NCBI RefSeq assembly: GCF_004342425.1
Contig: NZ_SLWQ01000003.1
Location: forward strand, 372,001 to 436,000
From: Dokdonella fugitiva
GTDB taxonomy: Bacteria > Pseudomonadota > Gammaproteobacteria > Xanthomonadales > Rhodanobacteraceae
Reading direction: 5' to 3'
Length of the DNA stretch: 64,000 bases
Shown: positions 15,426 through 19,079 of the stretch, piece after piece
How positions within the stretch are numbered: the first letter of the stretch is position 1
Layout of the letters: every line of letters starts with the position of its first letter
Translations under genes and position numbers: made by a program
The notes under the pieces: model-generated
The model's input: only the letters and a program-made list of their open reading frames with translations
What the model was told of the DNA's origin: nothing
Databases searched by the model: none

Positions 15426-16417
15426 GCGCGCAGGCCGAGCGCCGCGCCGCGCCACCGGCGAAGAAGGGCGCCGAACCACGGGGTCCGCGGGCCCCGCTCG
15501 GCGAACGGCTCGCCGCCTGGCGCGACCAGCACTTCTACAGCTTCTTCTCGAGCCTCGGCCGTCTCGCCGCGCGGCCGTGGGCGACCCTGCTGACCGTGCT
15601 CGTGCTCGGCTTCGCGATCGCGCTGCCGCTGCTGTTCTGGCTCGTCTTCGACAACGCGCGCGAGCTCTCGGGCGGGCTGCGCGAGGCGCGCGAAGTCACC
15701 TTGTTCCTGCAGCCCTCGCTCGGCCCGGAGCAGGCGGAGTCGTTCGCGGCCGAACTGCGCCGGCGCGACGACGTCGCCGCGGTGTTGCTGCGCACCCCCG
15801 AGCAGGGACTGGCCGAGTTCCGCGACCTCTCGGGTTTCGGCGAGGCGCTCGATGCGCTGCAGTCCAACCCGTTGCCGAGCGTGCTCGTCGTCACGCCGCG
15901 CGAGAGCGGCGCGGACGAGGATCCGCCGCTCGTTGCGGCGATGCAGGCGGACAGGCGCGTCGATCTGGTGCAGTATGACGCGGCGTGGCGACGCAAGCTC
16001 GGCGGTATCCTCCATTTCGGCGAGCGCGTCGTCGCGGTGGTCGCGGTGCTGCTCGCGCTGGCGACGCTGCTCGTGATCGGCAATACGGTGCGCATGGACA
16101 TCCAGGCGAGGTCGGCGGAAATTTCGGTGATGCAGATGATCGGCGCGAGCAACGGCTTCGTGCGCCGTCCGTTCCTTTATGCCGGCTTCTGGTACGGCCT
16201 GCTCGGCGCGCTGCTCGCGCTGCTCGTCGTTGTCGTGGTCGAACTCGCGCTCGCCGAGCCGGTCGCGCGGCTGGTCGAGAGCTACGCGCACCGGTTCGCG
16301 CTGCACGGGCTCGGCGCCGGCGTGGCCGCCGCGGTCGCCGGCGCGAGCACGCTGCTCGGCTGGTGCGGCGCGTGGATCGCGACCGCTCGCCATCTCGCCG
16401 CGGGGCGCCCGGCATGA
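15422..16417 (+). CDS. ftsX: Cell division protein FtsX
   Basis: This 331-residue inner-membrane partner of FtsE has a basic cytoplasmic N-terminus with a proline/alanine-rich stretch, transmembrane helix 1 (about 52-78), a periplasmic domain (about 80-195) and three C-terminal transmembrane helices, with SAEISVMQMIGASNGFVRRPFLY before the third being typical of FtsX. It starts at ATG 15422 inside the ftsE stop (ATGA) and its own stop overlaps the response-regulator start in the same way, so translation is coupled through the set. Confidence 0.94.
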   Translation: MSAQAERRAAPPAKKGAEPRGPRAPLGERLAAWRDQHFYSFFSSLGRLAARPWATLLTVLVLGFAIALPLLFWLVFDNARELSGGLREAREVTLFLQPSLGPEQAESFAAELRRRDDVAAVLLRTPEQGLAEFRDLSGFGEALDALQSNPLPSVLVVTPRESGADEDPPLVAAMQADRRVDLVQYDAAWRRKLGGILHFGERVVAVVAVLLALATLLVIGNTVRMDIQARSAEISVMQMIGASNGFVRRPFLYAGFWYGLLGALLALLVVVVVELALAEPVARLVESYAHRFALHGLGAGVAAAVAGASTLLGWCGAWIATARHLAAGRPA

Positions 16418-17268
16418 GCGCCGACGTTTCGCTGACCCGGCACATCTCGAGCGACCAGCCGCGCGTGCTAGTCGTCGACGGTTCGCGCGTCGTGCGCCAG
16501 CTGATCGAGCGCGTGCTCAAGGCCGAGCTGCCGAACGCGATCGTGATCGGCTGCGGCAGCGGGGCCGAGGCGCAACGCCATCTCGCCGACGGCGTGATCG
16601 ACCTCGTCACGACCGCGCTGCGCCTGCCCGACATGGACGGGCTCGAACTCGCCCGCCTCGTGCGCGAGAGCGGCAACCAGGCCTACATCCCGGTCATCGT
16701 CGTCTCCGGTGACGTGCAGGAGCGCCTCGTCGCGCGCACGCTGTCGAGTCACGTGACCGATTACTTCGACAAGGCACTCGGTTTCGACGCGCTTGCCGCG
16801 TTCATCCGCGGCTACGTCAAGCCGGCCGAGCAGATCGACGGCGAGGTGCTGTACGTCGAGGACAGCCGCGTTGTCGCGCTGGCGACGCGACGCATGATGG
16901 AGAAGTGCGGCTTCAAGGTCTCGCACGTGGTCAGCGTCGAGGATGCGCTCGCGCTGCTCGAGACCGCGCGCGCGCAGGGCCGCGGCCCGGGTGCCGACCT
17001 CGTCCTCACCGACGTCAACCTCAAGGGCGAGCTCAGCGGTGGCGACCTGCTCGAGCGCATCCGCGGCACGTTCGGTTACGGCAAGGGCGAATTGCCGGTG
17101 CTCGTCATGACCGGTGACGACAACCCGGCGAACCAGGCCGGCCTGTTGCGCGCGGGCGCCAACGACCTCGTGCACAAGCCGATCGAGGAACGCCTGCTCG
17201 TCAACAAGCTGCAGTTCCAGTTGCGCGTCGCGCGCCGCCTGCGCGAACAGGCGGGCGGCAACGCGTGA
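16414..17268 (+). CDS. Double-receiver response regulator with degenerate first receiver
   Basis: The 284-residue protein consists of two CheY-like receivers and no output domain. Receiver 2 (about 143-275) has all key residues: Glu149-Asp150, phosphoacceptor Asp200 (DLVLTD), Thr233 and Lys255. Receiver 1 (about 16-138) has Asp22-Gly23 in place of the acid pair and Ala68 where the phosphoacceptor aspartate should be (DLVTTA, immediately before LRLPDMDG), while Lys120 remains. It is thus likely a protein-interaction module. The gene overlaps ftsX and ung by 4 bp each. No sensor kinase lies nearby, so the input is unknown. Confidence 0.88.
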
Positions 17269-17987
17269 GCGGGGACCGCGTCCGGCTGGAGCCGTCGTGG
17301 AAGGCGCGCGTCGGCAGCGCGTTCGACGGGCCCGACATGCTCGCGCTGGCGGAATTCCTGCGCGCCGAGAAGCGCGCGGGCAAGATCATCCATCCCTCCG
17401 GCCCGCGCATCTTCGCCGCGCTCGACACGACGCCGTTCGAGCAGGTCAAGGTCGTCATCCTCGGCCAGGACCCGTACCACGGGGCGGGGCAGGCGCATGG
17501 CCTGTGTTTCTCGGTGCCGCCGGGCGTGCAGCCGCCGCCGTCGCTCGAGAACATCTTCAAGGAACTCGCGCGCGACCTCGGCATCCCGCGCCCGGACCAT
17601 GGCTGCCTCGAGCCGTGGGCGAAGCAGGGCGTCTTGCTGCTCAATGCGGTGCTCACGGTCGAGCACGGCCTTGCCGGCTCGCACCAGAACAAGGGCTGGG
17701 AGGGCTTCACCGACCGCTGCGTCGACGCGCTCAACCGCGAGCGCGACGGGCTCGTGTTCCTGCTCTGGGGCAGCTACGCGCAGCAGAAGGGGCGGCTGAT
17801 CGACCGCCAGCGCCACCTCGTGCTGAAGGCGCCGCATCCGTCGCCGCTTTCGGCCCATCGCGGCTTCATCGGCTGCGGGCACTTCTCGCGCGCCAACGAG
17901 TACCTGCGCCAGCGCGGCCAGGCGCCTATCGAGTGGCGCCTGCCGCCGCGCGCCCTGCTCGAAAACCCCGCCCCGACGCCCGCGTGA
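17265..17987 (+). CDS. ung: Uracil-DNA glycosylase
   Basis: Ung removes uracil from DNA to start base excision repair. The 240-residue protein has the catalytic water-activating motif [13 protein letters not shown] (Asp69) and the DNA-intercalation motif [18 protein letters not shown] with the catalytic histidine, plus [10 protein letters not shown] in the uracil pocket. Length and motifs match family 1 enzymes. The start is GTG 17265, overlapping the response regulator stop as GTGA. It is the last gene of the ftsEX transcription unit. Confidence 0.97.
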
Positions 17988-18098: not shown

Positions 18099-18104
18099 TA
18101 CAAT
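18099..18104 (+). promoter_or_regulatory. Possible upstream rpoH promoter (-10 TACAAT)
   Basis: TACAAT preceded by TAG lies 111 bases before the rpoH ATG, in a locally AT-rich stretch (18076-18125) that contrasts with the surrounding GC. The matching -35 position (around 18076-18081) is poor. It may be a housekeeping promoter; the assignment is weak. Confidence 0.35.
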
Positions 18105-18144: not shown

Positions 18145-18172
18145 GGAACTCTGGCCGTTCTTAGCACTCAAA
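18145..18172 (+). promoter_or_regulatory. Sigma-E-like promoter of rpoH
   Basis: GGAACTC at 18145-18151 and TCAAA at 18168-18172, separated by 16 bases, fit the extracytoplasmic sigma-E pattern (GGAACTT, 16, TCTGA/TCAAA). The -10 and the expected start point (about 18178) lie within the CIRCE operator. E. coli rpoH also has a sigma-E promoter. The assignment is by pattern only. Confidence 0.55.
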
Positions 18173-18187
18173 GGAGCCGAGTGCTAA
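18161..18187 (+). promoter_or_regulatory. Perfect CIRCE operator (HrcA site) upstream of rpoH
   Basis: TTAGCACTC (18161-18169), nine bases, then GAGTGCTAA (18179-18187) is an exact match to the consensus CIRCE inverted repeat bound by the heat-shock repressor HrcA. It ends 28 bases before the rpoH ATG and covers the -10 and probable start of the sigma-E-like promoter, an arrangement expected to give repression. CIRCE is normally found before groESL, dnaK or hrcA. Confidence 0.93.
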
Positions 18188-18215
18188 AGTGGGTAGCAGT
18201 GAGGAGTCCAGACGA

Positions 18216-19079
<864 letters not shown>

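Follow-up and report, generated by a model that had tools for sequence, protein, structure and literature searches.

In the window, i.e. the whole 64-kb stretch of Dokdonella fugitiva DNA analysed here, the gene of the heat-shock sigma factor sigma-32 (rpoH) lies downstream of ung on the forward strand, and its leader carries a perfect CIRCE, the operator of the repressor HrcA, intertwined with promoter-like elements. The features of the locus are as follows:

17265-17987, forward strand: ung, upstream neighbour of rpoH
18099-18104, forward strand: -10-like TACAAT, a weak candidate seen from its sequence only
18145-18151, forward strand: sigma-E -35 element GGAACTC, identified by its sequence and by a conserved register relative to CIRCE
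18161-18187, no strand: CIRCE operator, predicted HrcA site, TTAGCACTC-N9-GAGTGCTAA, an exact match that is kept in relatives and lost with hrcA
18168-18172, forward strand: sigma-E -10 element TCAAA, spanning the last bases of the left CIRCE arm and the first of the spacer, identified by its sequence and by the A at CIRCE position 12
18182-18190, forward strand: candidate extended -10 element TGCTAAAGT of sigma-70 type, pointed to by the T at position 30, with promoter use proposed
18201-18206, forward strand: Shine-Dalgarno GAGGAG of rpoH, recognised by its sequence
18216-19079, forward strand: rpoH, heat-shock sigma factor sigma-32, 287 amino acids (TIGR02392, 408 bits for a cut-off of 323)

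The operator reads TTAGCACTC-AAAGGAGCC-GAGTGCTAA at 18161-18187 with 0 mismatches, and 28 bases separate its end from the rpoH ATG at 18216, exactly as the original prediction had it. The same prediction placed the -10 of a GGAACTC-16-TCAAA promoter within the left arm and spacer of CIRCE, and the coordinates agree to the base: this promoter, which combines the GGAAC-type -35 and the TCnnA-type -10 of sigma-E promoters at the usual distance of 16-17 bases, spans 18145-18172, with its -10 overlapped by the operator. On the other side of the dyad, the right arm together with the three bases 3' of it forms TGCTAAAGT (18182-18190), which displays the TGnTAnnnT of sigma-70 extended -10 promoters. 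A consensus scan for classical sigma-70 promoters upstream of rpoH returned none, including at TACAAT (18099), which is therefore ranked as a weak candidate only; used as a -10, it would place CIRCE within the leader of the resulting transcript. No second CIRCE with up to 3 mismatches occurs in the 64-kb window, and 100 dinucleotide shuffles of the window produced 0 matches at this threshold. Further upstream, positions 16412-17268 encode a double receiver-domain protein that lacks an evident output domain, located between an FtsX-like gene and ung.

Joining HrcA to rpoH, as originally predicted, called for an hrcA gene in this genome and for a CIRCE before rpoH in relatives within the Lysobacterales, and both were found. 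The hrcA gene is present and intact (G000:C16; TIGR00331, 320.6 bits), with a GrpE-like open reading frame behind it, and rpoE is encoded as well (G000:C5:129442-130005; TIGR02939, 330 bits, above cut-off). Across the 4.28-Mb genome, a single further CIRCE-like site with up to 3 mismatches was detected, TTGGCACTC-N9-AAGTGCTAA, located 47 bases 5' of groES and differing from the consensus by 2 mismatches. The region before hrcA itself (L003:1100-1174) holds no CIRCE with up to 3 mismatches, so that the self-repression through CIRCE found in many bacteria is probably absent here, and inspection by eye revealed no convincing sigma-32 promoter before hrcA. With one site before groES, one before rpoH, and an hrcA gene devoid of its own CIRCE, the predicted HrcA regulon of Dokdonella fugitiva therefore consists of groESL and rpoH.

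Conservation in the order was first approached with a strict pattern (CIRCE followed after 10-40 bases by an ATG, with the conserved IQEGNI codons at the expected spacing), which was matched in 75 of the 398 genomes. This pattern undercounts, as g16 leaders have TTAGCACTC/GACTGCTAA and those of family f2 mostly TTAGCAGTC/GACTGCTAA. We then inspected the rpoH leader in each of 80 Lysobacterales genomes, picked mostly for failing the strict pattern, and searched hrcA in the same 80: most of the failing leaders carry a CIRCE with one to three mismatches. Allowing up to 3 mismatches, CIRCE precedes rpoH in 67 of the 73 genomes with hrcA vs 0 of the 7 without (Fisher p = 5e-7, a guide only given that the genomes are related; the seven genomes without hrcA represent seven different genera). 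In these seven leaders, the best match has 6-8 mismatches, and shuffled leaders give 6-9. A degraded site, or none, was found in six hrcA-bearing genomes (G008, G091, G335, G255, G319 and G286). The TTAGCAGTC-N9-GACTGCTAA operator, present in many family f2 leaders (L111-L136) and in some g16 leaders (L097, L102), is that of named Stenotrophomonas and results from a symmetric change in both arms that preserves the dyad. Named records also place the other groups: f1, the family of the window, includes Dyella (G072 is identical to Dyella flagellata), and Luteibacter and Rhodanobacter are the nearest to g16 and g22. As a side observation, the new G in TTAGCAGTC also yields a GTC 5' of the -10, and promoter and operator may therefore pull on one base.

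These comparisons bear on the nature of the repeat, which could instead act as a 5' hairpin of the mRNA, transcribed from a promoter further upstream and influencing stability or translation in the manner of an RNA thermometer. Such a hairpin, its 9-base stem closing a 9-base loop, would lie 28 bases 5' of the ATG, its pairing would survive the matched changes seen at positions 7 and 21, and TACAAT at 18099 might supply the upstream start. However, the arms are conserved in their actual letters and not only in their pairing, the same letters occur 5' of groES, the repeat vanishes along with hrcA, and a start at the sigma-E promoter would exclude most of it from the transcript, making the hairpin a quite improbable substitute for a DNA operator.

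The operator extends far beyond the order. In an even sample of 369 genomes across the class Gammaproteobacteria (as GTDB defines it, former beta-proteobacteria included), CIRCE was found before rpoH in 65, covering 52 genera, with hrcA in 61 of these 65 vs 268 of the 369 overall (p = 5e-6). Three of the four matching genomes without detected hrcA are only 72-77% complete; G639 (family f146), 97% complete, has a CIRCE before rpoH and no detected hrcA. Named records among the matches listed include Dyella, Stenotrophomonas, Rhodanobacter, Luteibacter, Pseudoalteromonas, Rheinheimera, Alishewanella, Methylococcus, Nitrosomonas, Thiobacillus, Thauera, Polynucleobacter and a Desulfuromonadaceae genome. 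The RpoH box is present in 200 of the 208 retrieved loci; among the 8 others, seven encode proteins 51-61% identical to RpoH of Dokdonella fugitiva, and the remaining one, a MAG locus (L251), reaches 38%. In Catenovulum (L240), a second TTAGCACTC half stands within ~10 bases after the rpoH CIRCE, perhaps forming a tandem operator. We found no support for reading the CIRCE before rpoH as a chance sequence or a functionless leftover, and this carries a vanishingly small probability against the absence of any match in shuffles, the persistence of the site across dozens of families, and its absence from Lysobacterales devoid of hrcA.

As the 208 loci were retrieved by CIRCE itself, only the bases outside its arms are informative about the promoters. 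GGAAC is located exactly 16 or 17 bases 5' of CIRCE in 121 of the 208 loci, which are partly non-independent, vs 0.13% in shuffles, and once near-identical leaders were removed, GGAAC or TGAAC occupied -16/-17 in 54 of 58 Lysobacterales. CIRCE position 12 contributes the A of the sigma-E -10; 34 of 47 rpoH families have an A there, vs 4 of 24 groES families. Position 30, the third base 3' of the right arm, is a T in 43 of 47 rpoH families vs 2 of 24 groES families (p = 3e-12). Together with the TGCTAA of the right arm, this T composes TGCTAAnnT, an extended -10 that keeps its most conserved positions, from which we infer a second promoter at TGCTAAAGT. The CIRCE before rpoH would consequently be an operator that incorporates two predicted, overlapping promoters. 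The conserved site, the presence of rpoE and the fixed register of the -35 support the further proposal of the original prediction, namely that the HrcA, sigma-E and sigma-32 circuits are joined at one predicted site.

Relatives deprived of hrcA offer a natural experiment on this arrangement. In G244, where hrcA is absent, the rpoH leader retains GGAACTT, CAGTCCAA and GACTGCTAAGAT, i.e. both predicted promoter elements, but has lost the outer left arm and has a spacer of 10 bases; in G253, from the same genus, hrcA is present and the TTAGCAGTC-N9-GACTGCTAA dyad is intact. Similarly, G243 is devoid of hrcA, retains GGAACTT and TGCTAAAAT, and has no left arm. As read from these two leaders, operator-only bases decay without hrcA while the predicted promoter bases persist.

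Beyond the site, its promoter elements, their conserved register, the co-occurrence with hrcA and the presence of hrcA, rpoE and groES, all directly established, we infer HrcA binding, promoter use and a link to GroEL, known for HrcA of other bacteria. The site is very probably a functional HrcA operator inside the rpoH promoter, gating the sigma-E and extended -10 starts through a GroEL-sensing HrcA. In unstressed cells, GroEL-supported HrcA on CIRCE would sit over the -10 and the transcription start region of both the sigma-E promoter and the extended -10 promoter, keeping rpoH transcription weak. The occupation of GroEL by unfolded proteins, established as releasing HrcA in Bacillus and others, would inactivate the repressor and derepress rpoH and groESL together, with the freed promoters being read by sigma-E or sigma-70 and envelope stress contributing sigma-E-driven transcription at the same place. 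Once GroEL is refilled, HrcA would become active again and close rpoH, so that the feedback would act on transcription. Accounts of the heat-shock response usually treat HrcA and sigma-32 as separate controls running in parallel; the conserved operator suggests that the two systems are probably wired together.

The strength of such control deserves caution. The sigma-32 level of E. coli is controlled mainly post-transcriptionally, through translation, stability and chaperone binding, and if the same holds here, HrcA might bind but barely affect rpoH, as a weak fine-tuner. The essentiality of rpoH in X. campestris (PMC6085468) goes in this direction and implies that any repression by HrcA must be partial. 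Likewise, under nitrogen starvation in X. fastidiosa, hrcA went up, groESL down and rpoH up two-fold (PMC3224663), a pattern at odds with strong repression of rpoH by HrcA in that species, and the degraded sites of some hrcA-bearing genomes are also compatible with a minor role. Conversely, a site kept near-unchanged across dozens of families argues for a selected effect, and we regard mere fine-tuning as unlikely, while granting it more weight than the hairpin.

If HrcA does gate rpoH, repressor release and sigma factor activation would form one cascade, in which GroEL would act as a transcription-level sensor and envelope stress would feed in as a second signal, and which could be tested in any hrcA-bearing gammaproteobacterium. 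The locus resembles rpoH of E. coli, transcribed from the sigma-E (RpoE) promoter P3, in its GGAAC-type RpoE promoter. The E. coli control of our hrcA search gave no match, so that P3 would function without an HrcA layer. The operator and its two overlapping promoters could accordingly represent the ancestral rpoH control unit across wide-sense Gammaproteobacteria, with HrcA placed over sigma-32 in most of the lineages retaining hrcA and the HrcA-less E. coli state derived, a scenario for which we see evenly balanced chances; it would suggest the loss of one layer from the much-studied circuit of E. coli.

No description of a CIRCE before rpoH in Gammaproteobacteria was found in the open full-text literature searched; the Permina and Gelfand survey of beta- and gamma-proteobacterial CIRCE may already list some rpoH sites. 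Within the literature searched, a single 46-base stretch uniting CIRCE, the sigma-E overlap and a third element, with class-wide conservation, appears undescribed. The original prediction knew of no described case in this order and needs one correction: a CIRCE had been predicted in 2004 before rpoH of Geobacter sulfurreducens (PMC545781, Table 8), so that only the sigma-E overlap and the wide scope look new. Both leaders carry a perfect CIRCE, starting at -51 from the translation start in Geobacter sulfurreducens and at -55 here, but the former is a single genome of another phylum, without described sigma-E promoter overlap, and G. metallireducens has no listed rpoH site (PMC545781). Compared with the CIRCE of the groESL, dnaK and hrcA operons, the rpoH operator shares the same letters, spacing and presumed repressor, but its target is a sigma factor gene, and its spacer and flank bear promoter elements that are absent from groES sites.
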